Origin: Deltaproteobacteria bacterium
Lineage (GTDB): Bacteria; Desulfobacterota; Desulfarculia; Adiutricales; Adiutricaceae
NCBI GenBank assembly: GCA_031264145.1
Contig: JAISEK010000127.1
Span: 1 to 64,000 of the forward strand
Length of the DNA stretch: 64,000 nt
Direction of reading: 5' to 3'
Position 1 is the stretch's first letter. Each line of letters opens with the position of its first letter. A program made the position numbers and the translations under genes. Shown here one piece after another: positions 2,857-35,427 of this stretch. Below the pieces are notes generated by a model. That model worked only from the letters and a program-made list of their open reading frames with translations, did not search any database and was not told where the DNA came from.

Positions 2857-3833
2857 CTTTGATCCCTGCCTTGTTCGGTGTTGGCGCCGGGCCAGGATGC
2901 GGCCGGCATGAATACCCGCAGGGGCCGCAAGAAAGGCCCCCGGGGCTTCCCATGGCTGGCGTCGTCGTCGCCTGGGAGGAAATTTTCGGCCAGGGCGGCC
3001 AGTCGTCCGCACGGGGCTATGATCTTGTGCAGCCCAGTTGGCGCCTGGGGCGGGGCCGGGAGACCGAGGCCGGAGCACAGGCGCCTCAGGGCCTCCGGTG
3101 GGAGCTCCAGCTCCGGCAGGTGGCCCAGGGCCTGGCGGGGGGGCATGACCCTGGCCAGGAGTTCCTCCCTGGACGAGGGGAGGGTCAGGGCCCCGTCGAG
3201 CCCGAAGTCGCCTATCGAGAGGCGGCGGAGGGCCGAGAGGGCCCCGCCGCCCAGGCCCAGGGCCAGGCCCAGGTCCCTGGCCAGCGACCTCACGTAGTAG
3301 CCGGAGGAGACCTGGGCCTCCAGGGTCAGGAGGGGCGGCCTGTAGTCGAGAAGCCTGAGGCTGAAGGCCGTGACCGCCCGTGGCGGCAGCTCGACGGGTC
3401 GCCCGGCGCGGGCCTCCCTGTGGGCCGTCCTCCCGGCCACCTTGATGGCCGAGATGGCCGGCGGGACCTGGAGGCCAGGGCCCTCCAGGGTGTCCAGGGC
3501 CATGGCGGCCTCGGAAGGGCCGGGCCAGGGACCGGGCCACTCGGAGAGCGTCCGGCCGGTGACGTCGAGGCTGTCGGTGGAAAGGCCCAGGCGGACCGTG
3601 GCCAGGTAGGACTTCCGGGACTTGACCAGCCAGGGTTCTAGGCGCGTGGCGGAGCCCAGGAGGATGGCCATCAGCCCCGTGGCCATGGGGTCCAGTGTCC
3701 CGGCGTGGCCGACCCTTTTCTGGCCGGCTATCCTCCGGACCTGGTTGACCAGATCGTGGCTGGTGAGGCCGCCGCCCTTGTCGACCAAAAGGAGCCCGTC
3801 AATCGCGGGGGGGGCCTGGCCTTGTCCGGTCAA
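2820..3833 (-). CDS. truB: tRNA pseudouridine(55) synthase
   Basis: The enzyme converts U55 of the tRNA T-loop to pseudouridine. With a TTG start that overlaps the nrnA stop (TTGA) and is preceded by GGGGAAGGAC, the product is 337 aa. The catalytic motif [12 protein letters not shown] places the nucleophile at Asp48, the same position as in E. coli TruB. Further family segments are [20 protein letters not shown] and [12 protein letters not shown]. The C-terminus carries a PUA-like region and then a proline/arginine-rich tail that continues 37 bases into rpsO, making the protein somewhat longer than average. The N-terminal 150 residues of the listed 491-aa ORF are a shadow of nrnA. Confidence 0.93.
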
Positions 3834-4870
3834 CCGTCCTTCCCCTGGGGCAGCAAGGGAAGCACGATGGGGAGCAGCCGGGCCAGGGCCGTGGCCGGCC
3901 GGGGGCTGTCGTCGAGGTAGGCGGCGGCCTGTCTGTGCCCGCCGCCGCCCTGCGACCTGGCCAGTTCCCTGACGTCCACGGCGGGCCTGGAGCGCAGGCT
4001 TACCCTGGTCTGGCCATGGCCGTTGACCTTCAGGAGGGCGGCCACGTCGACCCCTGACAGGAGCAGGGGGTACTCGACCAGGCCCTCGGCCTCGTCCAGG
4101 CTTGAGCCGGTGCGGTCCAGCATTTCCTGGGTCAGGAGCATCGAGGCCATCCGGCCGTCGTGGTGAAGGGCCAGGGTGGCCAGGGACTCGCTCAGGAGGC
4201 GCATCCTGGTGGTGGACCAGTTGCGCCTGAGATACTGGTTGATGTGCTCTATGTCCCCGCCCAGCGAGACCAGCACCGAGGCCTGCCTCAGGCACTCGCT
4301 GGTGGCGTTGCCCTGGCTGAAGGAGCCGGTGTCACTGATCAGGGCCGCCAGCAGGGCCTCCACGATCGGCGGGCTGAACTCCGCCCCCAGGGCCTCTATG
4401 ACCTTGAAGACGAGCTCGCCCGTGGCCGAGGCCAGGTGGTCGATGAAGCCGGCCCTGTAGTTGACCGGGGCCTGGCCGGAGTGGTGGTGGTCGATGGCCA
4501 CGTAGGGCGGGAAGGCCTCGGGCCGGCAGTCCTTGGCCTCCGGCCAGACCCTGGACGGGGAGAGGCAGTCGACCAGGACCATGAGGTCGAACCGCTGGGC
4601 CAAATCCGGGCCGAGGTCCAGGCTGGAGACGAATTTCTTCCCCCTGGTCAGGAAATCGAGGCTCTTGGCCACCATCCCCGTCAGGCCCACGGTCACCTCC
4701 CGGCCCGGCCCGTCCAGGGCCAGGGCCAGGGCCAGGGCCGAGCCCAGGGCGTCACCGTCGGGGTTCTGGTGGCCGACGATCAGAACCCTCCGGGCCACCC
4801 TGAGCATGGCCAGGAGACTCTCGGGCGGTTGGCTGACGTTGTCGCTGGTTTCGGTGGCCTTGGCGGTCAT
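3830..4870 (-). CDS. nrnA: DHH-family phosphoesterase, NrnA-like (oligoribonuclease / pAp phosphatase)
   Basis: The 346-aa product has the DHH catalytic series in order: HQNPDGDALGS, an aspartate in VLVDCLS, DHHHSG and ALISDTGSF. A DHHA1 domain with the glycine-rich GGGGHRQAA follows near the C-terminus. NrnA proteins degrade nano-RNAs and dephosphorylate pAp, using manganese. The start MTAKATE is preceded by AAGGAG; the longer ORF-track start would run into rbfA. It lies between rbfA and truB, the usual place for this gene in Desulfobacterota and Firmicutes. Which of the two activities dominates cannot be read from the sequence. Confidence 0.93.
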   Translation of the reverse strand: MTAKATETSDNVSQPPESLLAMLRVARRVLIVGHQNPDGDALGSALALALALDGPGREVTVGLTGMVAKSLDFLTRGKKFVSSLDLGPDLAQRFDLMVLVDCLSPSRVWPEAKDCRPEAFPPYVAIDHHHSGQAPVNYRAGFIDHLASATGELVFKVIEALGAEFSPPIVEALLAALISDTGSFSQGNATSECLRQASVLVSLGGDIEHINQYLRRNWSTTRMRLLSESLATLALHHDGRMASMLLTQEMLDRTGSSLDEAEGLVEYPLLLSGVDVAALLKVNGHGQTRVSLRSRPAVDVRELARSQGGGGHRQAAAYLDDSPRPATALARLLPIVLPLLPQGKDG

Positions 4871-19431: not shown

Positions 19432-20388
19432 TCAGCGGTCCTCAAGCTCCGGCAGCTCCTGGAGCAGATACTTGCGCAGGGACTTCTTCAGCCGCTCCTC
19501 AACCTGCCTTATGCGCTCCCGGCTGACCCCAAACTCCTCGCCCAGCTCCTGGAGCGTGATCGGGTCCTCGGTCATGAGCCGGCGCTCCAGGATGATGAGT
19601 TCCCTCTCGTCGAGGGTGTCCTTGAAGCGCTCCAGCTTGTCGGCGACCATCTCCCGGATCTGGGCGTCCGCGAGGATGTTGTCGGCGCCTTCCTCGGCAT
19701 TGGGGATCAGGCTTATCTGGGACTGGCTGGAGTCGGGCCCCACGGGGGCGTCCAGGGAGATCTCCCTGCCGGAGGACATGCGCATGTCCATCTCCCTGAT
19801 GGCCTGCTCGCTGACCCCCAGGCGCTCGGCCAGGAGGCCCGAGGCCGGCTCCAGGCCTTCCCTGGCCAGCTTGTCCTGCTCCTTCTTGAGGTTGTAGAAG
19901 AGCTTCCGCTGGGCCTGGGTGGTGCCAACCTTGACCAGGCGCCAGTTCTCCATGATGTACTTGAGCATGTAGGCCTTGATCCAGTAAGAGGCGTAGTAGC
20001 TGAACTTGACGCCCCTGGTCGGATCGAACTTCCTGAGGGCCTGCATGAGACCCATGTTGCCCTCCTGCACCAGGTCCTGCAGGTTGTTGAGCCAGTGGCT
20101 CTGGAACTCCATGGCGATCTTCACCACCAGCCTCAGGTTGGCCGTGACAAGGCCCTGGGCCGCCTCGGGGTTGCCGGTGCGCTTGTAGTCGTCCAGGAGG
20201 GCCTCCTCCTCGCCCGGGGTCAGCAGCTTGAAGCGCCTTATCTCGGCCAGGTAGGCGCTGAAGGAATCGGAGCTGGCCGGGGCCGGCGGCTGGGGCTTCT
20301 CCTTCCTGGCCGGGGGCAGGGCCTTGGGCCGCCTGGCCGGGACCGGGGCCGGGGTCCTTTCTATGGGTGGTTGGAAACTTGTGTCCAT
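19432..20388 (-). CDS. rpoH: RNA polymerase heat-shock sigma factor (sigma-32)
   Basis: A 318-aa sigma70-family factor. Regions 1.2-2.4 run from FSAYLAEIRRFKLLTPGEEEAL to DLVQEGNMGLMQALRKFDPTRGVKFSYYASYWIKAYM. The segment AQRKLFYNLKKEQ corresponds to the RpoH box, which separates it from RpoS/RpoD types. Region 4 closes the protein with LTLQELGEEFGVSRERIRQVEERLKK-like sequence. The first 40 residues are a proline-rich lead-in. It directs transcription of heat-shock genes in other Proteobacteria. It stands alone with a long upstream spacer. The Shine-Dalgarno (TGGAA) is weak, so translation may be regulated. Confidence 0.92.
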   Translation of the reverse strand: MDTSFQPPIERTPAPVPARRPKALPPARKEKPQPPAPASSDSFSAYLAEIRRFKLLTPGEEEALLDDYKRTGNPEAAQGLVTANLRLVVKIAMEFQSHWLNNLQDLVQEGNMGLMQALRKFDPTRGVKFSYYASYWIKAYMLKYIMENWRLVKVGTTQAQRKLFYNLKKEQDKLAREGLEPASGLLAERLGVSEQAIREMDMRMSSGREISLDAPVGPDSSQSQISLIPNAEEGADNILADAQIREMVADKLERFKDTLDERELIILERRLMTEDPITLQELGEEFGVSRERIRQVEERLKKSLRKYLLQELPELEDR

Positions 20389-21491
20389 GGGGTTTTCCAG
20401 CTGCCGGCTTGGTTGGCTGGCCAGGGGAATGCCCCGGCCTTGACCTTTGGTCGCTTTAAAACGATTTCTTTGGCTTTTGGCTAAAAAAGCATGCTGTTTT
20501 GGTGTACAGGGACAAAAAAGACAGAAACTGGCTTACGGAATCTGGGCCGGGATCAAAAAAATAGGCCCACCCGTCCAGGGATCCAGGGCCCGAAGGACAA
20601 GTTATATTACATCACGGTCCGGGCAAAGTCCACACGGCCAGGCCAAACCCAGGCCCATGGCCCAGCCTGGCGGCCTATTCGCCGGCCGACGCCAAGGGCC
20701 CGGGCCCAGAGGGGACGACCATGCGGGGCCGATCGCCGTCTCGCCGGGCCGGACGGCCGCAAGGGACGATATCCGGCTTATTTGAGGCTAGACGGAAACG
20801 CGCGCCGATAGGGCGGCGGGCCGCGCCCATCTCCGGGGGCGCATGGACATCGCCGGGGATCCTGCCTGGAGGCCAAGGCCTCGGGGCGCCGTCGTAGGCC
20901 CCAGGCCGTGGCGAGGCAAGGACCAGGCAAGCCAGCGGGGCCATGGGTCTGCCGGCGGCCAACAGGACCAGCTATGCCCGGCCCATCAGGGGACCGGCCC
21001 CATGTGTCCGGACGGCCACGGCAAGAGGGCCTCCCTGGGGTCAAGGGACGCCAAGGCCCCTTCCTCCAAGACCCCGGGGCCAAGTTACCGGCCAAATCGT
21101 TCCCGACGGGACCGCCCTGGCGGCCAAGCCGGGGCAAAGGCACCGCCTGGCCGTCCTGTCCATGCTGGCGGCCAGGAAGGAGGTCCTCCCGGCATTTTCC
21201 CATGCCGCGCCGCCTGTGGCGATCCAGGGAATGGCATGGCCGATCACCTGCCCATGGCCAGCGCCCCCTGGTGACCATGGGCCCACTGGCCTGACGCCTG
21301 GATTCGTCCGACTGCCCAGACGTTCTGGGCAATATCGTCGGCTCTCCGTCATTGCCCCATCGGCGCCTCGCCGGCGACGATGATAGCCCGCTGGTCCCGG
21401 GGTGCGAGTTGGCCTGCCCCGCATGAGGCCGCCATGGTCTGGGGATTTCCGGGGCCAGGGGCTAGGGGCTCCCCCAGGGGCTCTTTCCCGA
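20389..21491. other. Long GC-rich spacer without a supported gene
   Basis: About 1.1 kb separate rpoH from the Rpn-type gene. Many overlapping frames are open on both strands, but their products are low-complexity (Arg/Pro/Gly-rich) and none has a good start region or a recognisable motif. A -10-like TAATAT with a TGGACT 17 bases upstream lies near 20600-20635 on the minus strand and might serve rpoH. Otherwise nothing is seen. Confidence 0.5.
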
Positions 21492-21520
21492 CTGACATTC
21501 AGGCACATTTGTGCTACACT
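21492..21520 (+). promoter_or_regulatory. Promoter for the Rpn-type gene
   Basis: CTGACA (21492-21497) and TACACT (21515-21520) are spaced 17 bases apart, 31 bases before the ATG of the following gene. The close fit in spacing and position makes this a likely promoter. Confidence 0.6.
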
Positions 21521-21550
21521 AGGAGCTTAATATATTGCGAGGTATGCCGA

Positions 21551-22488
21551 ATGACCAAAACTGCCCCAGAACGACCAAGGCGAAAAACGGAAGTCGCCTT
21601 CATGTCCCCTTTGGCCTATCCTGTCGCGGATGAGCTTTTCAAGAACGAACAAATCGCCGGCCTGGCCGCATCTAGCCTCATCTACGCGGTGTTGGCCCCA
21701 CGCGATGAAAAGTTCGGCGACGTCGCTTCCCTAACGGTCCAGCAGCATGTGTCCAGACTCTTCAGGCGCAGCTGCCGCATCGACATCGTCGCCAAAAACG
21801 GAGCCGGCGAGACAGCGATCTTTGAGGTACGGCTCTATCACGACAAAAATATTCTCCAGCGCAATCTTCTGGAAGCCTCCCATATCTTCATCAGCACGGC
21901 GAGAAAGGGGACCACCCCCGCGGAGATGGCTTCCGAGATGCCCAGAGTCATCGTGATCAACATCTTCGGGAGCGAGAGCGACTGCCGGGATGACAACAGG
22001 GAACTCCTTCAGCCCATCGCGTTTTCGTTCAAGAAGATACCCAACCGCGCCGCATCGGACGATTATGAGGTCTTCAACGTACAGCTGCCCTATTTTCCAG
22101 AGGAGCCGGAGAACTACCCGGACCCGTTTTACTGCTGGTGCAAGCTTCTTTATGAAATGCACTTCAACGGCAAGCTACCTGAGGAGATATTCGCCATGGA
22201 ACCAAGACTGAAGAGATTCGTGTCTATGACGACAGAGGGGCGGAGCAGTTCGTGAACCGATACAGCGAGGTCATCTCAAGCCCCGAGGTGCAGGAAGCGT
22301 TCAAGGCCTGGATCTCTGATTTTCATGACAACAGCGTTCTGGCGGGGGAACGCGCGGCAGGGATGGAAGAAGGGATGGAAAAAGGGATGGAAAAAACCGC
22401 AAAAAATATGCTTGAAATCGGACTTGACACTGACACCATCGTAAAAGTAACTGGATTCACTAAAGAGAAGATTGATTCCATGCGCTGA
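21551..22488 (+). pseudogene. Rpn-family recombination-promoting nuclease / PD-(D/E)XK 'transposase', frameshifted
   Basis: The first part (MTKTAPERPRRKTEVAF, 234 aa) has the Rpn-type layout: SPLAYPVADELFKNEQ, then RIDIVAKNGAGETAIFEVRLY, which carries the D...ExK-type catalytic core with Arg after EV. The frame ends at 22255. The rest of the protein (NRYSEVISSPEVQEAFKAW...ERAAGMEEGMEKGMEKTAKNMLEIGL, the typical Rpn tail) continues in another frame from about 22240 to 22488. Adding one G to the GGGG run near 22237-22240 would restore one ORF. It is either a decayed gene or a slippage site. The start has GAGG upstream and its own promoter. Confidence 0.82.
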
Positions 22489-22562
22489 CAGTTTTTTGGG
22501 CGGCAATTTCTGTCATTTTCTGTTCCATCTGAAGGAACTGAATGATTTTGTCTGGCCTGGCT

Positions 22563-22693
22563 CAATGTCAACAATTTAAGACGCTCTGCCCTCAGATATG
22601 AGAAAAATGGTTCTCGTTCATGGCCTGCTCACTGGAGAGCAAGACGTTTGGTTTTTGTACCTGGCACTGAGACTGCCTAAGCTGCTGACATTG
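22563..22693 (+). repeat. Inverted-repeat-bounded element, copy A (131 bp)
   Basis: The element begins CAATGTCAACAATTTAAG and ends CTAAGCTGCTGACATTG, giving imperfect terminal inverted repeats of about 17-18 bp. The interior aligns along its full length with the reverse complement of 43081-43225 (shared blocks include GATATGA, TCGT.CATGG and TTTTTGTA). No clear target-site duplication is visible. It resembles a MITE or the remnant of an insertion element. Confidence 0.65.
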
Positions 22694-22714
22694 ATTGGAC
22701 ATGGTGAAGCTTAG
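22598..22714 (+). CDS. Possible 38-codon ORF spanning repeat copy A
   Basis: ATG at 22598 opens a frame reading MRKMVLVHGLLTGEQDVWF and ending in KLLTLIGHGEA. Copy B of the repeat keeps the same frame over KVLVHG.LT.EQ and over the terminal LKLLTL, apart from one missing base and one stop. Shared coding-like structure suggests a fragment of a once-longer gene or a small protein. No ribosome-binding site is seen, and the function is unknown. Confidence 0.25.
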   Translation: MRKMVLVHGLLTGEQDVWFLYLALRLPKLLTLIGHGEA

Positions 22715-22884
22715 TTTATCAATATATAATTTTTAAAATTTTATAAATAATAAATTATTTATAAAACCATATAGTATTATTTTAAAATATATGTATAAAT
22801 AATTTAATATTATCTTAAATGTTATAGAATAAGTATATCTAAAAATATAAATAGAATATGATTTATTTTTTAAACGATCTTCTC
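22715..22884. other. AT-rich spacer
   Basis: This region is nearly all A and T, in sharp contrast to the GC-rich surroundings, and lies between repeat copy A and the end of the DUF4143 ATPase gene. No gene or clear terminator is seen. Confidence 0.6.
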
Positions 22885-24105
22885 TCAGTATGACGAGGCC
22901 AGCAAAAAGTCTCTAATGTTCATGTGTCTGATGCCATCGCGACTCATGTCGAATTCATCCATGGAGACGACATACTTGGGGAAATTATCTGGGACTTCGT
23001 AATAGACCCCGAACTCCCTTTCTATGGTCTCCTCGCTGGCGAGCAGATAGCAAACCTGGACGTAGACGCGTTCGCCTTGGTGGGCGCAGACAAAGTCGAT
23101 TTCCCTGTCGAGAACGCGCCCGACCGTGATCTCGTATCCTCGTCTCGACATTTCCAGGCAAACAATGTTTTCGAGCACCAGCCCGATGTCCCGCTCGTTG
23201 TGCCCATAAACCGCCTGGCGCAGACCATGATCCGCCACGTAGTATTTTTCATCGACTTTGAGCATCTTTTTGCCCGACACGTCGAGACGGCGTACCCTGT
23301 GGATAAGATAGGCTTCCTCGCAGGCCTTCATATAATTCAGGACCGTCTCAGGAGCCACCTTGCGTCTTTCATTTTTGAAATACCTGGAGATCCCGGAAGC
23401 CGAGAGGCTTTTGCCCACATTGGCCAGGAGATAGGCGACGATCCTCTCCAGAAGATCCACATCCCGGAAATTATTTCTCCTCATGACGTCCTTGATGACG
23501 ATTGAGGAAAAGATGTCCCGCATATATTGCCTGGAATCGGTTTCGGAAAGGCCAAGGCTGGCCAGAAAAGGCATTCCCCCCTGCTCCAGGTATCGCCGAA
23601 ACAGTTGGCTGTCCGATATTCCAGGCGTCCTGTCCCTGAAGGCGAGGCAAAACTCCTTGAACGAAAAAGGAAACATCCGTATCTCAACATACCTGCCAGC
23701 TAGCAGCGTCGCCAGTTCCCCCGTCAGCATTTTGGCGTTGGAGCCAGTCACGTAGATATCCGCGTCGGAGTTGACCCGCAGCGAATTGACGCAGGCTTCC
23801 CATTTATGCACCTCCTGAACCTCGTCCAGGAAGAGATAGGCCCGGCCGCCCACTGTTCGAATTTTGGACAGTATATGGTCATGCAGCTTTCTGGGATCTC
23901 TTAAGTCCCAAAGATTCATGTCCTCGAAGTTTAGACTGATCAGCTGGTCCTGTGGGACGCTGCGATTCAAAAGCTCTCGCCGTATCAGTTCCAGCATGAC
24001 CGATTTGCCGCTTCGGCGGAGGCCGGTTATGACTTTGACAATCTCGGGCTGGTCGATGAAGCCTTCAATCTTGTTCATATAAATTTCTCGTTGAATCATG
24101 TTCAC
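22885..24105 (-). CDS. AAA ATPase with DUF4143 domain
   Basis: A 406-aa protein with an N-terminal P-loop ATPase (GLRRSGKSVML as Walker A, AYLFLDEVQEV as Walker B, then IYVTGSNAKML). A winged-helix-like middle follows (MPFLASLG...YLLANVGKSLSASGISRYF), and then the DUF4143 nuclease-like C-terminus with DREIDFVCAHQGERVYVQVCYLL. The family is abundant in gut bacteria and archaea; its role is not established. The best start is the GTG at 24105, with GGAGGAGG five bases upstream; an ATG follows two codons later. The listed start at 24138 is a TTG without a site. Its base composition is lower in GC than the core genes, so transfer is likely. Confidence 0.85.
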   Translation of the reverse strand: MNMIQREIYMNKIEGFIDQPEIVKVITGLRRSGKSVMLELIRRELLNRSVPQDQLISLNFEDMNLWDLRDPRKLHDHILSKIRTVGGRAYLFLDEVQEVHKWEACVNSLRVNSDADIYVTGSNAKMLTGELATLLAGRYVEIRMFPFSFKEFCLAFRDRTPGISDSQLFRRYLEQGGMPFLASLGLSETDSRQYMRDIFSSIVIKDVMRRNNFRDVDLLERIVAYLLANVGKSLSASGISRYFKNERRKVAPETVLNYMKACEEAYLIHRVRRLDVSGKKMLKVDEKYYVADHGLRQAVYGHNERDIGLVLENIVCLEMSRRGYEITVGRVLDREIDFVCAHQGERVYVQVCYLLASEETIEREFGVYYEVPDNFPKYVVSMDEFDMSRDGIRHMNIRDFLLASSY

Positions 24106-24139
24106 CGAAACCTCCTCCAGCCGCCTTGACAGATTCAAG

Positions 24140-24900
24140 ATGAATTATGGGCGTAGGGCCGAAAGCCCTCGACAGATTGGCAACTGTCTGCTTAATCTAG
24201 TATTATCATAAGATTATCATTACAACTTGAAAAAGGCAAAACATTCGCAGACTAAAAGACTATAACAAGACTTTATCGAAAAAATCAATATTCCGGCAGT
24301 TACAACTGACGCCAAGCTTATTTTCCAATAGAAGTGCAAGTATATATTTCTAGTTTTCTGAATTTTGCGCTTATCGTGGAGTTATGTCAGTTTTAGCGGC
24401 CATCCTTCTGAGACCAGCGTCAGGATTGATGTTCATGATGGAACTGAATTTGCAAAATGCTTGCCAATATGGTATAAAATAAACATAGTCAAAGCTATAT
24501 CGCTGAACTTTACTTATGTAAAGTTGTGAAGGCTAGAATATTTTTTTAATGACATAACTATATATTAAATAATATTTAAAATTTAATATATTATATAAAT
24601 TATAAAATCAATTTAATTCGCAATCAAATATTTTTAAATATAACATATTTATTTGATTACTATATAATAATTAATTATATATTATCAATATTCACAAATA
24701 TATTAATAAAATATTTATATGAAAATATTTATTGTATAAATATATATAGTTACTAAAACATAGATAGTTTAATTGAAAAATTTATTAATTATTATATATA
24801 GGTATATTATACTGTAAAAAATAAATAGATAATAAATTTTAGACTTATACCGTGTATAATAAATAAAATATCATTAAAATGACAGTAATTAAAAAATTTG
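24140..24900. other. Large AT-rich spacer
   Basis: About 760 bases between the DUF4143 gene and the (CT)n locus. From about 24530 onward the sequence is almost purely A and T with no credible ORF. Near 24195-24225 the minus strand has repeated GATAAT motifs that could include the DUF4143 promoter. TGTATAAT near 24853 could be a -10 box for the short transcription unit that follows. Nothing else is seen. Confidence 0.5.
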
Positions 24901-24920
24901 TCCTGGAGGGTTTTGGAACA

Positions 24921-24971
<51 letters not shown>

Positions 24972-25026
24972 TAAGTAGTTTTCACATTTCCTCGTGTTCC
25001 TTATGGATCACGGAGGTTATTCCAAG

Positions 25027-25065
25027 GCCTAACGCCAAAGAGTTTCTTTGGCGTTAGGCTTTTTT
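25027..25065 (+). terminator. Strong Rho-independent terminator after the (CT)n micro-ORF
   Basis: GCCTAACGCCAAAG pairs perfectly with CTTTGGCGTTAGGC (14 bp, loop AGTTT) and is followed by TTTTTT. It lies 55 bases after the micro-ORF stop and 230 bases before the restriction gene. It implies a short transcript beginning somewhere in the AT-rich region upstream. Confidence 0.92.
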
Positions 25066-25295
25066 GTTGAGTTTAGGTCCAATGAAATAAACATCACATC
25101 TTGAATCTGAAGATATCTGATCAATTGAATAATTAATTATTAATATATTTTTAATATAAAAATTTATATAATTATTTTTATTATAGTTAATTATGAGTAT
25201 ACAATAACCCATATATTGTATGACTCGTATGTCCAATCATCATCAGAAATGTATTCCTACCGTAAACCTTGCTTTAGAGAGAAAAAGGTCACTAC

Positions 25296-28200
25296 ATGGA
25301 TTTCCAGGACATACTGCGCAAGTATCGCGCTGAAGCGTTCAGCCAGCGGGACAAGGGCGACCACTTCGAAAGGCTCATGGCCAACTTTTTGAGGACATAT
25401 CCTCCTTACGAGGGGGAGTTCGCCAAGATCTGGCTTTGGAAGGACTGCCCATTCCACAAGAGTATCAGCCCGTCCGGCAAGGACATCGGGATCGACCTCG
25501 TTCTGAGGAACGTGGACGGCGGATACTGGGCCGTCCAGTGCAAGTGCCTTGTCGAGGACGCCTATGTGAACAAACAGGCGGTCGACAGCTTTCTTGGGGC
25601 CAGCGGCAAGCGTTTCAGGGATGAGGCTGGACGAGAGTCCGTCTTCTCGAACCGTCTGTGGATCGCCACGACCGACAACTGGTCAGCCGAGGCCGAGCGC
25701 GAGTTGGACAACCAGACCCCCTCTGTCAACAGGATTGGCCTGGCCAACCTTGACGCGGCGGACGTTGACTGGGACAAGCTTGATCGGGGTCTCCACGGAC
25801 GAGAGGCCAGGCCTCCCCGCAAAACCTTGATGGAGCACCAAAGTATCGCCCTGGAGAAGGCCGTGGAGCACTTCAAGGAGCATGACCGGGGCCAGCTCAT
25901 CATGGCTTGCGGGACGGGCAAGACCTTCACCTCACTCAAAATAGCTGAGGAACTGACCAAAGGACGGGGACTGGTCCTGTTTCTGGTCCCCTCCATCGCC
26001 CTGATCGGCCAGACACTTAGGGAATGGACGGCTAACGCCAATAGTCACTTCCATGCTGTGTGCGTCTGCTCCGATGCCGAGGTATCCAAAGGCAGTGAAA
26101 AAATAATGAACGACCGCGACATGTCATCGGTGGTCGATCTGGCCCTGCCGGCCACTACCGATCCTCTACAAATACTGAGACAGTTGGAGCATGGCCGACT
26201 AAAATCGCCTCAACGCCTCAATGTAATATTTTCCACCTACCATTCAATAGAGCGGGTGGCTCAGGCACTCAAGACCGGCAAGCATGTCGTGGATCTTATT
26301 GTGTGCGACGAGGCCCACCGGACCACCGGGGTGATCTCGCCCGACGACGAGGAGAGCCATTTTGTCAAGGTCCACGACCCAGGTTTCATAATAGCGAAGA
26401 AACGCATGTACATGACGGCCACCCCAAGGATTTTCGCTGACATGGCGAAAAAAAAGGCCGAGAACTGCTCGATGGCCCTCTGTTCAATGGACGATGAAAG
26501 CCTGTACGGCCCAGAAATCTACCACCTTGGTTTCGGAGAGGCCGTTGACCGGGGACTTCTCTCCGACTATAAGCTTCTTGTCCTGACTGTTAACCGGCTG
26601 GCAGTCCCTGAGGAGCTCCAGGCCGTGGCCGCCGAGGGGAAAAAAGAGATCGATACCGATGCCGTCACCAAGCTCGTTGGCTGTCTAAACGCCTTGTCCA
26701 AAAACATGGACTATGAGCACAAAATCCTAAGCGAGGTTGACCCTGGCCGCATGCGCAAGGCGGTGGCCTTCTGCCAGACCATACCTAATTCTATGGCCAT
26801 AACGGGAAGGCTCAACCGGCTCAATGGTGACTTGGCAAGCAAGTTAACCAATGATGAGCTGGAGAGACTGGTCGATGTCAGCGCAATGCACATAGATGGG
26901 CGCATGGGGGCAACGGAACGGGACAGGCTGATGTCCTGGCTGAAAGCCGAGTCCGGCAACCAGAATGACTGCCGGGTACTCACCAATGTCAGATGCCTGA
27001 GTGAAGGAGTCGACGTACCCACATTGGACGCAGTTCTGTTCATTTCGCCCAAGAACTCCCAGATTGAGGTGGTCCAGTCAGTAGGCCGCGTAATGCGCAG
27101 GGCCCCTGGCAAGAAATTTGGATACATCATCATCCCTGTGATAGTGCCTTCTTACGTGGAAGGAGAAGCTGCCCTGGATGAAAACAAGGAATACGAGGTG
27201 CTCTGGACAGTCTTGAATGCGCTGAAGGCCCATGATGACCGCTTCAAAGCCATAATCAACAAGATAGAGTTCAACGTGGACCAGACTGATGGCAAGGGAA
27301 AATTCATAATAGGAGGAATAGCCGGTTCAGTAGAGGAAACCAAGCACTTGGCTATCCAAAAGGCCAAGGCCCAGGATCTCCTGGCCAAGGTCAGGGAAAA
27401 GGAACTACTCCTTCACAACGCAATATACGCCAAGATTGTAAAAAGGATGGGCAGCAAGCACGACATGATGCGGTGGGCGATGGATGTCGCTAAGATTGCC
27501 GATGGCTTCAAGAAGAGGATCGCCACAGTCGTCGGACAGGATGGCCCACACAAAATCGAGTTTGAAAATTTCCTTGAAAGCCTCAGGCAAACCCTCAATC
27601 CCTCGATCAATGACGCCGAGGCCATTGAAATGCTGGCTCAACACCTGATAAGTAAGCCAGTTTTCGAGGCTCTGTTCGACGACTATTCCTTCGTCAAGAA
27701 CAATCCTGTCTCAAGGTCCTTAGAGGCCATGATTGACGTCCTGGAAGATCAGGGCCTTGAGAAGGACAAAATCATCCTTAGCCGGTTCTACAAGACTGTC
27801 AGGGATGAGGTCGCCGGTATCGACAATCCCGCCGCCAAGCAGAAGATCATGGTCAACCTCTACGAGAATTTCTTCAGGCTGGCCATGCGCAAGACGGTTG
27901 ACAGGCTGGGCGTGGTCTATACCCCGATAGAGGTGGTCGACTTCATAAACCATTCGGTGGCCAAGGTCCTGAGGAGCGAGTTTGGCCGGGACATCTCGGA
28001 TCCTGAAGCCCACATTCTTGACCCATTCGCCGGAACCGGGACCTTCATCGCCAGGCTGATCCAGACGGGGCTTCTGGGGGAGGGCGACAGGCTGGCATAC
28101 AAATACGCTAACGAGCTTCATGCCAACGAGATGGTTCTGTTGGCCTATTACATAGCCAGCGTCAATATTGAGAACGCCTATCATGCGGCCATGGGCGAGC

Positions 28201-30155
28201 CGACCGACTACCACCCCTTTGACGGCATATGCTTGACCGATACTTTTCAACTTTTTGAAAACAACACGACAGATATCTTAAAAGATCAACGCCTAAAGCA
28301 AAATATTGAACGTGTTAATACTCAAACGTTAATTCCAATAACGGTTATAATTGGCAATCCTCCGTATTCCGTAGGCCAAGGCGATGCCAACAAAAATGCC
28401 AAAAATCAATTTTACCCCTTATTGGAACAGCAAATAAACTTGACTTATGGTCATGAATCTGTCTCGGCTAATGTGAAATCATTGTACGACTCATATATCA
28501 AAGCCATACGATGGGCTTCCAATAGGCTAGAATTGGAAGGTTGCGGGGTTGTGGCCTTTGTATCAAACGCCGGATGGCTGGACGGCAACGCCATGGACGG
28601 CATGAGGAAATGCCTCGCCGAGGACTTCAGCAAGATATATATCTTCAACTTGAGAGGCAATCAAAGGACTTCAGGGGAATTATCAAGAAAGGAAGGTGGC
28701 AAGATTTTTGGGTCTGGCAGCCGGACGCCCATAGCCATCACCATACTGATAAAGAACCCGGCCCATAAAGGCCAGGCTGAAATCTATCATCATGACGTCG
28801 GCGACTATTTGTCTCGAGAAGACAAGCTGGCTATATTGGCCAAGGCACATGACCTGTATAATCCAGGTTTGGCCTGGGAAAAGATTGAACCTAATGAAGC
28901 CGGTGATTGGTTAAATCAAAGAAGTGATACGTTCAAAAAATTCTATCTTATTGGTAAAAAAAATTACTTTTTAACTATTTTTAAAGATATTTATTCTTAT
29001 GGAATTACGACAAATAGAGATATATGGAATTATAATTACTCTAAAAATAATTTACTCGAAAATATAAATAATTTAATATCTTTTTATAATTTTCAAAGAA
29101 AAAAATATAATAAAATAAAATTAAATAATGATTTAACAAATATAAATTCAATAATTGAATATGATAATTGTAAAATAAGTTGGTCAAGATCTTTAATTAA
29201 GAATATTGAAAGAAATATACAACTAAAATTTGATAGCAAAAATGCTGCTATATCATTATATAGACCTTTTTTAAAACAACATTTATATTTTGATAAAAAA
29301 TTAATAGAATATATTTATACAATACCTCAGTTATTTCCAACCCAAAATCACCACAATTTAGTCATTTGTGTTTCTGGGATTGGCGTAAACAAAGAATTTT
29401 CTACAATAATGACCAATATTCTTCCTGACTTAGAATTAATTGGAAAGTCCCAATGTTTCCCCCGCTACCACTATGAGGATCTCAAGACTGAGGGCGGGAC
29501 CCAAAAGAGGACCCTTTTTGACTCGGGTACGATAATTGACGGCCACAAACGCCATGACGCCATAACGGACTACATTCTTGAGGAGAGCCGGGCCAGGTAT
29601 GGCTCAAAGGTCAACAAGGACGCCATCTTTTATTACGTGTATGGCTTTCTTCATTCAGAGGACTACAGGGCAGCGTTCTCGGCCGACCTGAAAAAGTCGC
29701 TGCCCAGGCTGCCCCTGGTGGACAAACCGGAGGACTTTTGGGCCTTCTCCAAGGCCGGCCGGGACCTGGCCGAGCTTCACCTCAATTATGAGACGGTCAA
29801 GCCTTACGGCCAGGCCAAGGTCACCGGCGAGGACAGGGGCGACTTCATCGTCGAAAAGATGCGCTTCGCCGGCAAGGACGACAGGACGGCCATCCTGTAC
29901 AACCAGTCCATCACCGTCAGCGGCATCCCCCCGGAGGCCTACGATTACGTGGTCAATGGCCGATCGGCCATCGAGTGGGTCATGGACCGCTACCAGGTCA
30001 AGGTCGACAAGGACAGCGGCATCAAAAACGATCCCAACGACTGGGCCAGGGAGCACGGCCAGCCCAGGTACATCCTGGATCTCCTGCTTGGCCTCATAAC
30101 CGTCAGCCTGGAGACCATGAAGATCGTGAAGGGCTTGCCAAAGTTGGAGTTTTGA
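25296..30155 (+). CDS. Type ISP restriction-modification enzyme (nuclease-helicase-methyltransferase fusion)
   Basis: A single 1619-aa polypeptide with the LlaGI-type order. A Mrr-like PD-(D/E)XK nuclease comes first (GKDIGIDLVLRNVDGGYWAVQCKC, residues 61-84). A superfamily 2 translocase follows (GTGKTF near 206, CDEAHRT near 336, VQSVGRVMRRAPGKK), then a coupler. The N6-adenine methyltransferase has DPFAGTGTF near 908 and GNPPYSVG near 1020, and the C-terminal target recognition domain comes last. It should both methylate and cut at one asymmetric site. Codons around 1200-1385 (28920-29450) are strikingly AT-rich, while the flanks are GC-rich, which points to exchange of the recognition domain. 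The start has AAAGGT upstream. Confidence 0.93.
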   Translation: MDFQDILRKYRAEAFSQRDKGDHFERLMANFLRTYPPYEGEFAKIWLWKDCPFHKSISPSGKDIGIDLVLRNVDGGYWAVQCKCLVEDAYVNKQAVDSFLGASGKRFRDEAGRESVFSNRLWIATTDNWSAEAERELDNQTPSVNRIGLANLDAADVDWDKLDRGLHGREARPPRKTLMEHQSIALEKAVEHFKEHDRGQLIMACGTGKTFTSLKIAEELTKGRGLVLFLVPSIALIGQTLREWTANANSHFHAVCVCSDAEVSKGSEKIMNDRDMSSVVDLALPATTDPLQILRQLEHGRLKSPQRLNVIFSTYHSIERVAQALKTGKHVVDLIVCDEAHRTTGVISPDDEESHFVKVHDPGFIIAKKRMYMTATPRIFADMAKKKAENCSMALCSMDDESLYGPEIYHLGFGEAVDRGLLSDYKLLVLTVNRLAVPEELQAVAAEGKKEIDTDAVTKLVGCLNALSKNMDYEHKILSEVDPGRMRKAVAFCQTIPNSMAITGRLNRLNGDLASKLTNDELERLVDVSAMHIDGRMGATERDRLMSWLKAESGNQNDCRVLTNVRCLSEGVDVPTLDAVLFISPKNSQIEVVQSVGRVMRRAPGKKFGYIIIPVIVPSYVEGEAALDENKEYEVLWTVLNALKAHDDRFKAIINKIEFNVDQTDGKGKFIIGGIAGSVEETKHLAIQKAKAQDLLAKVREKELLLHNAIYAKIVKRMGSKHDMMRWAMDVAKIADGFKKRIATVVGQDGPHKIEFENFLESLRQTLNPSINDAEAIEMLAQHLISKPVFEALFDDYSFVKNNPVSRSLEAMIDVLEDQGLEKDKIILSRFYKTVRDEVAGIDNPAAKQKIMVNLYENFFRLAMRKTVDRLGVVYTPIEVVDFINHSVAKVLRSEFGRDISDPEAHILDPFAGTGTFIARLIQTGLLGEGDRLAYKYANELHANEMVLLAYYIASVNIENAYHAAMGEPTDYHPFDGICLTDTFQLFENNTTDILKDQRLKQNIERVNTQTLIPITVIIGNPPYSVGQGDANKNAKNQFYPLLEQQINLTYGHESVSANVKSLYDSYIKAIRWASNRLELEGCGVVAFVSNAGWLDGNAMDGMRKCLAEDFSKIYIFNLRGNQRTSGELSRKEGGKIFGSGSRTPIAITILIKNPAHKGQAEIYHHDVGDYLSREDKLAILAKAHDLYNPGLAWEKIEPNEAGDWLNQRSDTFKKFYLIGKKNYFLTIFKDIYSYGITTNRDIWNYNYSKNNLLENINNLISFYNFQRKKYNKIKLNNDLTNINSIIEYDNCKISWSRSLIKNIERNIQLKFDSKNAAISLYRPFLKQHLYFDKKLIEYIYTIPQLFPTQNHHNLVICVSGIGVNKEFSTIMTNILPDLELIGKSQCFPRYHYEDLKTEGGTQKRTLFDSGTIIDGHKRHDAITDYILEESRARYGSKVNKDAIFYYVYGFLHSEDYRAAFSADLKKSLPRLPLVDKPEDFWAFSKAGRDLAELHLNYETVKPYGQAKVTGEDRGDFIVEKMRFAGKDDRTAILYNQSITVSGIPPEAYDYVVNGRSAIEWVMDRYQVKVDKDSGIKNDPNDWAREHGQPRYILDLLLGLITVSLETMKIVKGLPKLEF

Positions 30156-30381
30156 GTGCGGAGGGGCATCATCGGCCGAATTGCCGCCATATTGGCTGGG
30201 CGCCCGGGTTTGGGTCGGGACTCGTCGGGAATGGGGAGGCTGGGTACCGGCGGCCTTCCGCCGAGAGGACGCTGGCGACGCATACGTGGCGTCCGCGGCG
30301 GGCAGGCTCAATCGGTCATTGTCAGGCTGTTTTGGGGGACGGACGGCTTTTGCGCTGGCCCTAGGCGGCGGCGTTGACCAG
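29466..30381 (+). repeat. Direct repeat copy 1 (3' end of the Type ISP gene plus downstream spacer)
   Basis: This 0.9-kb segment recurs, slightly diverged, at 34549-35427. It runs from the codons for YEDLKTEGGTQKR to the spacer after the stop, and ends with a sequence matching the last codons of the gene at 35407. Copy 1 keeps an intact reading frame. The two copies bracket the IS element and cargo genes. Confidence 0.9.
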
Positions 30382-30546
30382 AGCGTTTTGTGCGCCCATG
30401 GCTTAGCGGATATTCGCGCGATGCACATATATTAGAACTTTCCCAATAGCTTGTACTATACACTGAACCAGTATCGCTCAACTCAGACGATAAATTGTTG
30501 TATTCAAAAGAATTATTTTTATAAATCACCCCGAAAAAAAACTTCC

Positions 30547-30581
30547 GTATAGTCTTATAATGCCGTATAATTAGACTATAC
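30547..30581 (+). promoter_or_regulatory. Palindrome with two -10-like boxes upstream of the transposase
   Basis: GTATAGTCT (30547-30555) and AGACTATAC (30573-30581) form a perfect 9-bp inverted repeat. The spacer between the arms contains two TATAAT hexamers. It lies about 25 bases before the transposase ATG and could be its promoter with a binding site for the transposase or another regulator. No good -35 box is present. Confidence 0.4.
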
Positions 30582-30604
30582 ATCCGGGAAAGGGGGGATC
30601 TGTA

Positions 30605-32104
30605 ATGCCTATACCTCAGGATATTCTCTCGGTCGAAAGGCCAACGAACACCGTGGTAACCGCTTACGGAAAAAACAAAAACCTCTATGCCGTGAGGAAA
30701 CGGACGGGCTGCAGATACGTTGGCGGAAGGCGCGTGCCGATTAACGGCCCAACAATAGGGCATATCATCGACGGCATGTTCGTGCCGATAGACTCCGCCG
30801 CTCCGGGGAATGTATCCGTGTCGCCGGCGGATCTGAAAGACTGGGCAAACGTCGTGTTATGCGACGATGTCAACAAAGACATGATCGACGAGCTCTGTCA
30901 AGTCTATGGCAGAGCGGACGCCTTGAAGATTTATTGCGTGTCGACGCTTCGCGTCTGCGATCCGGGAATAAAAGACCATGAACTCAAAAATGCCTATGAC
31001 GCCAGCTTTTTGTCAGAGATTTATTCGGGAGTCGCCTTATCAAAGAACGCCGTGTGCGATTTTCTGAACGATCTTGGAAGAACCTGTTCCCGCATCGTCT
31101 CGTTTATGAGGAACAGGACAGCCGCCGTCGATATGAGCCATCACCTCCTGATAGACGGGACGTTGAAATCCGATGAGTCAAAAGTCAATTCTTTATCGGA
31201 CTTCTCAAGGAAGGCACGCGCGAAAAGGACGCGGGACATATCGGTATTGTACGCGTTTGACCTTGAGTCGATGGAGCCCATCTGTTCCAAATGCTTTCCG
31301 GGGAACATGCCCGACATGACTTCCTACGAGGCGTTCATATCGGAAAACCGCATCACTAAAGGCGTGATCGTCGCCGATAAAGGATTCCCGGCTTCCGCGG
31401 CGGGGGAATATTTCCGAAATCACCCGGATTTGCACTATCTTAATCCGATCAAGAGAAACGCGAAGGTGATAGATGATTTACGGCTTTTGGATTTCACCGA
31501 TATCCTCGATGGGTATGATGGCGTCACCTACGTCAAGAAAGAGCACGCCAGACAGGGCAAATGGCTGTATTCTTACCGTGACGCCCACAGGGCCGCCAAG
31601 GAGGAGCAGGACTGGCTGCGGCGCGCCAAAAAAAAAGGGAACTTTGATTATATCGAGCTACAGGGCAAACAGCGGGTATTCGGGACAATGGTGTTGGAGT
31701 GTGACCTTGACCTGTCGGCGGGGATCATCTACAAGGCGTATGAGAAACGATGGGAAATCGAGATCGTGATGCGGTATTACAAGTCAGCCCTTGAGTTCGA
31801 CGAGACGCGTGTCCATGACGATTATTCCGTGATGGGCAGCGAATTCTGTGATTTCCTCTCGACCGTGTTGACTTTTAAGCAGCTCAGACGGTTTGATAAG
31901 GTCAAAATTCTTGAAAAATACACATATAAGAAAATCATGTCCGTACTTACAAGGGCAAAAAAGGTGAGGCTTGATGGGGATAACTGGAATCTCATTAAAA
32001 TCAATCCGTCTTACGAAGAGATGCTGAAAGATTTGGGTATCCTGCCAAAACCGGACGAACTGCCCAAACAAAAAAGAGGAAGGCCTCGGAAAACCGATGT
32101 ATAG
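30605..32104 (+). CDS. IS4-superfamily DDE transposase (IS1634-like)
   Basis: A 499-aa transposase. The DDE core is visible as LLIDGTLKS (first Asp), VIVADKGFP (second Asp) and the signature YEKRWEIEIVMRYYK, which fits the Y-2-R-3-E-6-K rule of the IS4 superfamily and supplies the catalytic Glu. The C-terminus is basic (KQKRGRPRK). The ATG is preceded by AAGGGGGGATC. The gene is intact, so the element may still be active. Confidence 0.93.
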   Translation: MPIPQDILSVERPTNTVVTAYGKNKNLYAVRKRTGCRYVGGRRVPINGPTIGHIIDGMFVPIDSAAPGNVSVSPADLKDWANVVLCDDVNKDMIDELCQVYGRADALKIYCVSTLRVCDPGIKDHELKNAYDASFLSEIYSGVALSKNAVCDFLNDLGRTCSRIVSFMRNRTAAVDMSHHLLIDGTLKSDESKVNSLSDFSRKARAKRTRDISVLYAFDLESMEPICSKCFPGNMPDMTSYEAFISENRITKGVIVADKGFPASAAGEYFRNHPDLHYLNPIKRNAKVIDDLRLLDFTDILDGYDGVTYVKKEHARQGKWLYSYRDAHRAAKEEQDWLRRAKKKGNFDYIELQGKQRVFGTMVLECDLDLSAGIIYKAYEKRWEIEIVMRYYKSALEFDETRVHDDYSVMGSEFCDFLSTVLTFKQLRRFDKVKILEKYTYKKIMSVLTRAKKVRLDGDNWNLIKINPSYEEMLKDLGILPKPDELPKQKRGRPRKTDV

Positions 32105-32133
32105 TCCAACTGATTGGGAAAGTTCTAATATAT

Positions 32134-32236
32134 GGTCTCAATTCCGATAAACAATTTCTGCGCAGTGGCTTTTAGGACACAATCCTTGCTTCATCAATGC
32201 AGCGACCTCCAGTTCACGCTTGCTCAGTTTTCGCAT
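32134..32236 (-). pseudogene. Remnant of a LuxR-type helix-turn-helix regulator
   Basis: The minus strand reads MRKLSKRELEVAALMKQGLCPK, the start of a LuxR/GerE helix-turn-helix. A one-base shift then gives a more family-like continuation (KATAQKLFIGIE). The fragment is cut off by the IS right end and lacks an N-terminal domain. It is only about 33 codons long and is most likely decayed. Confidence 0.55.
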
Positions 32237-32347
32237 GGCTGCTTCTCACATTTGTGTTGTTGGATATTGGAGGACTTTTATACGGAAAGTGCCCGCCAAG
32301 GGCGCAGGCGCTGGTAGAGGTTACATGGCTCATGAATGGCGCGGTCA

Positions 32348-32908
32348 TTATTCAAAGAAGCGCACCTCATTACCCTCGATAGCCTTTTTTTCTAGCCGGT
32401 CAACCACCTTACTACCCACAGCCACCGAGCAGTATACATTGTAATCGCTAGGGATATTTATTTTTCTTCGAAATTCCTCCGCCCTTGGTCCATGAAAAGC
32501 GAATAATGTAAAATTGATCCAGCATGCTCCGAGGCCGAGCGATTCCGCGGCGATCAGCATGTTCTGATTGGCTGCGGCGCAGTCCGCCTCAATCATAGGC
32601 TTATTGCTATCACCAGCCACAATGACAAGAACGGGAGCTCCATAAAACACATTATATTCCTTGATGTTACCAATGCGACGATAGAATTCTTCATTGCGGG
32701 TGGCGGCAACTTCTTTGACGGCAACGTTGAATTCCTTAAGGAGATGTTCATTCTGAACCACCACGAAAAGGCGAGCTTGACGGCCCATGGCGCTTGGAGC
32801 GGAGCGTCCGGCTTCGACGATAGCCCGGACGACGGCCTCATCTGGCATGTCAGGTAAAAACTTTTTCGCACTTCTCCGCCGAGAAATAATGCGCAGTGTT
32901 TCATTCAT
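32348..32908 (-). CDS. Nitroreductase-family flavoprotein
   Basis: A 186-aa member of the nitroreductase family, which uses FMN and NAD(P)H to reduce nitro compounds, quinones or enones. Family features are the RRSAKKFLPDMPDEAVVRAIVEAGRSAPSAMGRQ N-terminus (FMN contacts), the ADCAAANQNMLIAAESLGLGACWI core and a C-terminal SVAVGSKV segment. The ATG has AGGAGGGG upstream. It lies in a cargo block with a methyltransferase and a TetR regulator. Its codon use is less GC-rich than core genes, suggesting transfer. The substrate is unknown. Confidence 0.9.
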   Translation of the reverse strand: MNETLRIISRRRSAKKFLPDMPDEAVVRAIVEAGRSAPSAMGRQARLFVVVQNEHLLKEFNVAVKEVAATRNEEFYRRIGNIKEYNVFYGAPVLVIVAGDSNKPMIEADCAAANQNMLIAAESLGLGACWINFTLFAFHGPRAEEFRRKINIPSDYNVYCSVAVGSKVVDRLEKKAIEGNEVRFFE

Positions 32909-33025
32909 GCTTTTCCCCTCCTAAGTAATGATTCCCCCAATGATCAATCATAATACAAGACATTCAAGGGAACACAAGATAATTACACCTGGCAACATGG
33001 CTGTCCATGATATTTTAGCAACATT

Positions 33026-33682
33026 TCAGCCGAGCTTCAGGGACAACTCAACGTCCTCAGCGGCAGGTATTGATATATACTTGACTGACGAGCGCACATA
33101 CGACAGATACTCAGGGCTGCGGTCGGCGTCGTCGGCAATTACCAGCGCTCCCGGCCTGAGGCGGTTTTCCGCCATAGCCAGGACTTCGAGGTACAGCGCT
33201 TTGGAGCCGTCAAGCAGAAGTAGGTCTATGGAGTCAGGCAGATCGACACTCAAGGTTTGCAGCGCGTCCCCTTCCCGAACTTCCACCAGATCAATGAGGC
33301 CACCCGTTTTCAGGTGTTCTTTGGCTTTTGCCACTTTTGACGGTTCGAACTCGCTGGTGATCAGGCGTCCGCCTCCATTGTCACGCAAGGCGGCGGCAAG
33401 GAACAGCGTCGAGACACCGAAGGATGTGCCGAATTCGACAACTTCCCGTGCCCGGCAAGCGCGCGCCAGTACATAGAGCAGCGAGCCTGTCACCCGCGAA
33501 ACTGCGAGCGGAAAATCCTTCAACCTCCCGTAAAGGATACGATACTCAGTTTTGCTTTGTAGAAGGCGTTCAAACTCCTCATTGGAAAAAGAAAGATCTC
33601 CGATTCTTGCGTCAGATGCCGCATCCTCTTTGAGCAATGAATCCAGTAGCGGGGCCAAAGGAACGCTCGCTAATGTGTTCAT
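33026..33682 (-). CDS. O-methyltransferase family protein (class I SAM-dependent)
   Basis: A 218-aa protein related to the catechol/caffeoyl-CoA O-methyltransferase group. SAM-binding motif I is VVEFGTSFGVSTLFLAAAL. It is followed by the acidic strand RLITSEFEPSKVAKAKEHL, then SIDLLLLDGSKALYLEVLAM and the late motif GALVIADDADRS. It probably methylates a small aromatic molecule, but no substrate can be read. It is transcribed divergently from the TetR gene across a 103-bp spacer with an inverted repeat, so it is the likely target of that regulator. Confidence 0.88.
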   Translation of the reverse strand: MNTLASVPLAPLLDSLLKEDAASDARIGDLSFSNEEFERLLQSKTEYRILYGRLKDFPLAVSRVTGSLLYVLARACRAREVVEFGTSFGVSTLFLAAALRDNGGGRLITSEFEPSKVAKAKEHLKTGGLIDLVEVREGDALQTLSVDLPDSIDLLLLDGSKALYLEVLAMAENRLRPGALVIADDADRSPEYLSYVRSSVKYISIPAAEDVELSLKLG

Positions 33683-33731
33683 AGGTATTCTCCTATGTTG
33701 CTTGATGGTAATTTTCTTTAGGGCTATAATA

Positions 33732-33759
33732 CGACTAATTATTCATATTTCGCTAGTCG
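33732..33759. promoter_or_regulatory. Candidate TetR operator in the divergent spacer
   Basis: CGACTA (33732-33737) and TAGTCG (33754-33759) form an inverted repeat with 16 bases between the arms. It lies between the divergent methyltransferase and TetR genes, right after a TATAAT (33725-33730). TetR-type regulators usually bind such palindromes next to their own gene. Confidence 0.4.
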
Positions 33760-33785
33760 CATTGGCGCACAACTATTATAAAACT

Positions 33786-34451
33786 ATGTCGGAACGCAAA
33801 ACCCTCCAAATTTCTTTACGAAAACAGCCCAAGCAAGCCCGTTCAACTGAACTTGTCGCAAGCATCATGTCCGCTGCTGCTCAGGTTTTAGGAAAGGAGG
33901 GCGCGGGCCGTTTTACAACAGCGCTGGTTGCGGAGAGAGCCGGGGTGAGCATTGGCTCGCTGTACCAGTATTTTCCCAGCAAAGCGGCGATTTTGTTTCA
34001 GCTCCAGAGCGATGAATGGCGGCAGACAACCAAAATGTTGCGAAACTTGCTTGAGGATGCGCAAAAACCGCCGCTTGGACGGTTGCGCGCCCTGGTTCAT
34101 TCTTTCATTCGATCAGAATGCGAAGAAGCCGAGATGCGGGTGGCGCTTGATGATGCCGCGCCGTTGTACCGGGATGCGCCCGAGGCGCTGGAGAAAATAA
34201 CTGAGGGAGAGTACGTCTTTCGAGAGTTCATGCTTAAAGTGCTGCCTCATATTACGGAAGAAACGCGTGTATTGGCTGGCAACCTTATCATGACGACGCT
34301 TTCTTCGGCAGGAAAGCGTTTTTCGGAAAGCCCGCGAACTACGGTGGAAATTGAAGCCTACGCCGAGGCCATGTCTGATATGTTTTGCGCCTATCTTAAA
34401 AGCCTCACGTCTGAATTGTCCGTGTCCACAAGCAGGACATTCCGCTCCTGA
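33786..34451 (+). CDS. TetR/AcrR-family transcriptional regulator
   Basis: A 221-aa regulator. The N-terminal TetR helix-turn-helix is clear: RSTELVASIMSAAAQVLGKEGAGRFTTALVAERAGVSIGSLYQYFPSKAAILFQL. The rest is the variable ligand domain. The start MSERKTL was chosen because the DNA-binding domain follows at the usual distance; the longer ORF reads through the divergent promoter region. The last 20 or so codons (34391-34451) overlap, antisense, a ParA-type gene fragment, so the natural C-terminus may have been replaced at a recombination junction. Confidence 0.88.
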   Translation: MSERKTLQISLRKQPKQARSTELVASIMSAAAQVLGKEGAGRFTTALVAERAGVSIGSLYQYFPSKAAILFQLQSDEWRQTTKMLRNLLEDAQKPPLGRLRALVHSFIRSECEEAEMRVALDDAAPLYRDAPEALEKITEGEYVFREFMLKVLPHITEETRVLAGNLIMTTLSSAGKRFSESPRTTVEIEAYAEAMSDMFCAYLKSLTSELSVSTSRTFRS

Positions 34452-34540
34452 TTCAGCAGATAATCCAGCAAGGCAAAGAGAACAAGATTTTTGTCCACGC
34501 CACCCTTGCTGCCGTCAACATAATACATCGGAATATTCAT
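34391..34540 (-). pseudogene. N-terminal fragment of a ParA/MinD-like plasmid ATPase
   Basis: The minus strand reads MNIPMYYVDGSKGGVDKNLV and continues LFALLDYLLNQERNVLLVDTDNSD before a stop at 49 residues. This matches the start of ParA-like P-loop ATPases found on plasmids and conjugative elements, where the deviant Walker A would be KGGVGKS or similar. Here it reads KGGVDKN, losing the key glycine. The rest of the gene is absent. It is therefore a dead fragment that marks a recombination end. It is missing from the ORF track. Confidence 0.7.
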
Positions 34541-34548
34541 GATTATAG

Positions 34549-35190
34549 TACTACTATGAGGATCTCAAGATTGAGGGCGGGACCCAAAAGAGGAATCTTT
34601 TTGAATCGGGCACGATAATTGACGCCCACAAGCGCCATGACGCCATAACGGACTACATTCTTGAGGAGAGCCGGGCCAGGTATGGCCCAAAGGTCAACAA
34701 GGACGCCATCTTTTATTACGTGTATGGCTTTCTTCATTCGGAGGACTACAGGGCAGCGTTCTCGGCCGACCTGAAAAAGTCGTCGCCCAGGCTGCCCCTG
34801 CTCCAAGGCTGGCCGGGACCTGGCCGAGCTTCGCCTCAATTATGAGACGGTCAAGCCTTACGGCCAGGGTAAGGGCACCGGCGAGGACAGGGGCGACTTG
34901 ATCGTCGAAAAGATGCGCTTCGCCGGCAAGGACGACAGGACGGCCATCCTGTACAACCAGTCCATCACCGTCAGCGGCATCCCCCAGGAGGCCTACGATT
35001 ACGTGGTCAATGGCCGCTCGGCCATCGAGTGGGTCATGGACCGCTACCAGGTCAAGGTCGGCAAGGGCAGCGGCATCAAGAACGATCCCAACGACTGGGC
35101 CAGGGAGCACGGCCAGCCCAGGTACATCCTGGATCTCCTGCTTGGCCTTATAACCGTCAGCCTGGAGACCATGAAGATCGTGAAAGGCTA
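34549..35190 (+). pseudogene. Truncated second copy of the Type ISP gene 3' end
   Basis: The sequence repeats the last 230 or so codons of the restriction gene (YEDLKIEGGTQKRNLFESGTIIDAHKRHDAI...). It differs by scattered substitutions and a deletion of about 37 bases near 34798, which shifts the frame. The open part in the ORF track (34898-35191) starts after the shift. The stop also differs (TAG in GGCTAGCC, against GGCTTGCC in copy 1). It cannot make a working enzyme. Confidence 0.88.
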
Positions 35191-35427
35191 GCCAAAATTG
35201 GAGTTTTTAGTGCGGAGGGGCATCATAGGCCGAATTGCCCGGGCGTCCGGGTTTGGGCCGGGACTCGTCCGGGAATGGGGAAGCTGGGCACCGGCGGCCT
35301 TCCGCCGAGAGGACGCTGGCGACGCATATGCGCCGTCCCGCGGGCGGGCAGGCTCAATCGGTCATTGTCAGGCTGTTTTGGCGGAAGGACGGCTTTTGCG
35401 CTGGCCCTAGGCGACGGCGTTGACCAG
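34549..35427 (+). repeat. Direct repeat copy 2
   Basis: This is the counterpart of 29466-30381, including the ISP 3' end and the downstream GC-rich spacer (GTGCGGAGGGGCATCAT...). It continues into the 3' end of the gene at 35407, where copy 1 breaks off. The copies share long exact blocks, but copy 2 carries one internal deletion. Confidence 0.9.

Follow-up and report, generated by a model that had tools for sequence, protein, structure and literature searches.

A 143-bp mobD remnant fused antisense to a tetR 3′ end within an acquired low-GC island

The locus and its island

The window analysed here is a stretch of 64,000 nucleotides from a deltaproteobacterial draft genome (198 contigs), in which an open frame of 49 codons crosses the tetR 3′ end on the opposite strand (Table 1). 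Translated on the minus strand, the frame reads MNIPMYYVDGSKGGVDKNLVLFALLDYLLNQERNVLLVDTDNSDVRLLR followed by a stop; it shares 61 bases with the tetR frame, which stops at 34451, and its P-loop is GGVDKN where GGVGK(S/T) is expected. Frame, P-loop and overlap had been described in the original prediction, and all three are seen in the translation and the coordinates. The frame is composite: its first 45 codons (34406-34540) represent the beginning of a mobD gene, within a remnant that reaches 34548 and measures 143 bp in all, and antisense tetR rather than mobD supplies its final residues, RLLR, and the stop.

Table 1. Features at and around the mobD remnant (positions in the window)
Feature	Position	Strand	Remarks
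Full-length type ISP restriction-modification gene	25296..30155	+	1619 aa
IS1634-family insertion sequence	30433..32127	+	6-bp target duplication ATATAT at 30427-30432 and 32128-32133
Nitroreductase-family protein	32348..32908	-	Divergent nitroreductase/tetR pair kept in G011 and G035
O-methyltransferase-like protein	33026..33682	-	Between nitroreductase and tetR; missing from that position in G011
TetR-family regulator (TetR_N + TetR_C_18)	33786..34451	+	Residues 208-221 (TSELSVSTSRTFRS) and stop from antisense mobD
49-codon frame	34391..34540	-	Final 4 codons and the stop read from antisense tetR
tetR/mobD junction	34405..34406	.	Placed to within a few bases; common to G011 (L020)
mobD-type (ParA/MinD superfamily) 5′ remnant	34406..34548	-	45 codons and 8 bases upstream of the ATG; from comparison with L017, L035 and L036
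Junction of mobD stub and duplicated type ISP tail	34548..34549	.	
Second, decayed copy of the type ISP gene's 3′ end and downstream region	34549..35427	+	91% to 29466-30381; internal 29-base deletion

These features lie in an island of about 15 kb, at about 20.4-35.4 kb (20389-35427), whose GC content is 45-50% except in the type ISP tails (60%), compared with 65-67% on either side. The island is flanked by a sigma factor gene (19432-20388) and a gene at 35407, which in a genome of the same genus (G002) stand about 0.7 kb apart with the island absent; low GC and absence from this relative together place the stub in acquired DNA. No tRNA was found at the island edge, and the only direct repeat in a search of the edges, a 15-bp match at 20154/35646, lies outside both putative edges and so was not used.

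The cargo of the island comprises the type ISP restriction-modification gene, an AAA-type ATPase gene, the IS1634 element and the nitroreductase/methyltransferase/tetR block. In G011 and G035, nitroreductase and tetR are direct neighbours, with no O-methyltransferase-like gene between them. The IS1634 element was considered as the maker of the junctions described below and rejected, since its own target duplication and intact ends mark an independent insertion; related copies lie on contigs C162, C132 and C35.

Identity of the fragment

An open frame of 49 codons is uninformative by length alone, so homology has to decide, and the similarity found is far beyond chance. A protein search with the 49 residues, which the original prediction had proposed as a check on its ParA-type assignment, did return ParA-like matches. 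The only relative in a scan of genome contigs was a mobD copy, itself truncated, in a Desulfovibrio MAG (L017; 67% at the amino-acid level, E 4e-15; 78% of nucleotides over 112 bp, E 3e-22), and mobD of a Xanthomonas citri plasmid that carries a MOBP relaxase and type IV secretion genes matched at 52% (E 4e-6). Viral contigs searched with the fragment held no relative. With the query extended to the L017 copy, intact homologues of 234-236 residues were found in a Desulfovibrio-like genus, so called by inference from its similarity to the L017 MAG. There mobD is intact in L035, L036 and L037, and in L035 and L036 it lies beside a relaxase gene, in the order relaxase, a 123-residue protein ending YYTPD.PD.EL, mobD (234-236 residues) and a protein of 201-202 residues.

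For the fragment, the Pfam CbiA/ParA match stays below threshold (E 0.004); an intact homologue matches clearly (E 6e-9) and falls into CbiA/MinD/ParA, and the neighbouring relaxase is MobA/VirD2 by Pfam; by NCBIfam the relaxase is MbeA-like and intact MobD a weak TraL match. Among plasmid genes, the best records matched intact MobD at about 46% across 99% of the protein, and 170 of the 232 matching plasmids are typed mobilizable; a search of the PDB with the same protein returned nothing at E 0.001.

We assign the fragment on sequence grounds to the MobD/TraL/StbB group, the ParA-like ATPases of mobilization operons, and not to partition ParA (parABS), as its best matches are mobD genes beside relaxases. 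The original prediction was thus right in seeing a truncated gene of the ParA superfamily and is amended as to the family, which points to mobilization and not to partitioning. MobD of pTF-FC2 and TraL of RP4 have been classed as StbB-like proteins with the motif KGGXXK[T/S] (PMC3098194), and mobD and mobE are reported to boost mobilization without being essential for it (PMC4785139). Of the features of this family, the fragment retains homology over the nucleotide-binding N-terminus; it lacks the deviant Walker A motif KGGxxK[T/S] (PMC3098194; the window has KGGVDKN), the full length of ~230 residues and a position beside relaxase or mob genes, its neighbours being tetR and the ISP gene tail. 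Compared with MobD of IncQ-like/IncP-6 mobilizable plasmids (pTF-FC2, the Rms149/p10265-KPC group), the N-terminal 45 residues, the Walker A region and the VLLVDTD segment are alike, but in the window all except the first fifth of the gene is gone, the P-loop is mutated and no other mob gene adjoins. The conjugation ATPases StbB (R388) and TraL (RP4) are ParA-like too, and KGGVDKN breaks their motif. Closest are the Desulfovibrio-like mobD genes (L035, L036, L037 and the truncated L017), which have a similar start context, the window copy differing in being truncated and in lying beside tetR.

Two junctions and the state of the remnant

The fragment aligns with MobD proteins from the start codon through the DV of the N(P/S)DV motif. 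When full-length Desulfovibrio-type MobD was matched to the window, only residues 1-49 aligned, at 34540-34406 (E 6.5e-12), and the rest of the gene was absent from the window. In the other direction mobD similarity ends at 34548: CTATAATC precedes the ATG in the window and CTTTGATC is its counterpart in L035, and the 8 bases ahead of the ATG perhaps look like the last bases of the preceding operon gene, although they are too few to be firm evidence. A genome search found this single mobD place and no further pieces. The possibility that the tetR block had been inserted into a mobD gene whose other half lies on the far side was rejected, as no 3′ half was found in the window or genome. A relaxase like P0007 was not found in the genome either, in a search that had no positive control and shows little. 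Both negative results weigh against the reading proposed below.

At 34548/34549 the stub adjoins the second type ISP copy, which lacks its 5′ part. The genome has no fewer than three copies of the type ISP 3′ end (29466-30381, 34549-35427 and contig C116 of G000, 3475-4140), so that this junction sits at a repeat, a classical site for an assembly misjoin. We nevertheless regard an artefactual edge as unlikely, because the copies of the ISP tail differ by 9-12% and the ISP match begins exactly where mobD homology stops, as expected of a true breakpoint.

The junction with tetR can be dated by comparison. The window TetR ends FCAYLKSL-TSELSVSTSRTFRS, in which the 14 extra residues, like the stop, are read from antisense mobD. 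Four TetR homologues (L021-L024) lack this tail: three, all of the same family, end no more than a few residues from the common C-terminus (L022 FCAYLREIA, L024 GAYLKELGAEI, L023 RRFLEG), and in L021 an unrelated tail follows FCAYLREI. The closest homologue, with 88% identity, comes from another genus (G011, L020) and ends FCAYLKSF-TSDVPLSVSTSRTFRQ; its last residues, SVSTSRTFRQ, have SVSTSRTFR in common with the window. Read antisense, the G011 tail gives RNVLLVDTDSGTSEV, with RNVLLVDTD opposite SVSTSRTFRQ, and further upstream it diverges into other DNA.

Because the G011 homologue has SVSTSRTFR and hardly any mobD beyond it, one could read these residues as the native TetR C-terminus, with a chance antisense resemblance to ParA and a mobD fragment joined there later. 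This reading is largely refuted and, in our judgement, very improbable: the four other homologues are without the tail, 24/28 bases of the G011 tail agree with L017 mobD at the homologous position where the best of 300 shuffles reached 19/28, and in the window the mobD match is continuous through the tail. Since G011 shares the tail and the tail is antisense mobD at the homologous position, we take the junction at about 34405/34406 to be real, present in both genera and older than the insertion at this locus. The recombination junction of the original prediction is therefore borne out; the comparison of TetR C-termini that it had suggested yields four homologues without the tail and one with it; the latter, a partial instance of what it had named as refuting, dates the junction rather than refuting it.

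We judge the stub to be dead, a remnant and not a working MobD, from its GGVDKN P-loop, the two codons lost within the TDTDNPDV segment of the alignment and the absence of ~80% of the gene (45 of about 234 codons remain). That the open frame, which has a start codon and a short counterpart in the mobD 5′ stub of Desulfovibrio L017, is expressed as a small ParA-like protein such as a dominant-negative or regulatory mini-ATPase is extremely improbable, as substitutions have removed the second P-loop glycine, ahead of the lysine, and the Ser/Thr that follows the lysine, the frame closes in foreign antisense DNA, the L017 stub has a different end, and N- and C-terminal mobD fragments of other sizes occur, which fits decay.

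Proposed history and its implications

Very probably, the locus holds a dead 143-bp mobD 5′ stub that was recombined antisense onto tetR and derives from a MOBP-type mobilization operon of Desulfovibrio-like bacteria. In the history we propose, the source would have been the gene of the ParA-like accessory ATPase in an operon of the order relaxase, small protein, mobD, membrane protein, carried on a plasmid or on an integrative mobilizable element. Recombination, probably non-homologous, would have put the stub tail-to-tail and antisense at the tetR 3′ end, in an ancestor either common to this and a second genus of the family or transferred to that genus. The tetR frame would then have read on into the stub, gaining its last 14 codons and stop, and the block would have come to adjoin the duplicated ISP tail within the low-GC island. 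The order of these steps and the type of recombination are what we infer from the arrangement.

The dN and dS values between the window and the G011 genus (0.066 and 0.225 for the tetR core, 0.073 and 0.402 for the nitroreductase) fit purifying selection acting on the block, of which the tail is too short for such a test. There is a slender chance that the 14-residue tail, found in two genera, may now be part of a working regulator that gained a new C-terminus by antisense fusion to a mobile-element gene.

The remnant is a small, clean record of gene transfer, in which a piece of a Desulfovibrio-type mobilization operon is joined to tetR and the joined gene now occurs in two genera that belong to a different class within the same phylum-level group. 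The position of the remnant shows that mobilization DNA was once adjacent, and does not show that the nitroreductase/methyltransferase/tetR block was on a plasmid; of the plasmid or conjugative origin first proposed for the cargo, a mobile-element origin holds for the fragment, whereas adjacency alone suggests a plasmid origin for the cargo as a whole. The remnant matters mainly for annotation: the frame at 34391-34540 should not be called a gene, and the TetR tail should be trimmed in alignments.

In the Desulfovibrio-like genus, as in the L017 genome, broken mobD genes are frequent, some of them N-terminal and some C-terminal, and such remnants are therefore ordinary; the stub is an ordinary gene remnant and a trace of past gene transfer, and no new system. 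Selection for a recurring N-terminal mobD stub was considered and rejected, because the Desulfovibrio-like genus has internal and C-terminal fragments as well. The Desulfovibrio MAG G063 carries three broken mobD copies of differing extent (L017 3983-4213, L052 around 690, and L045), one of them directly behind relaxase-region genes.
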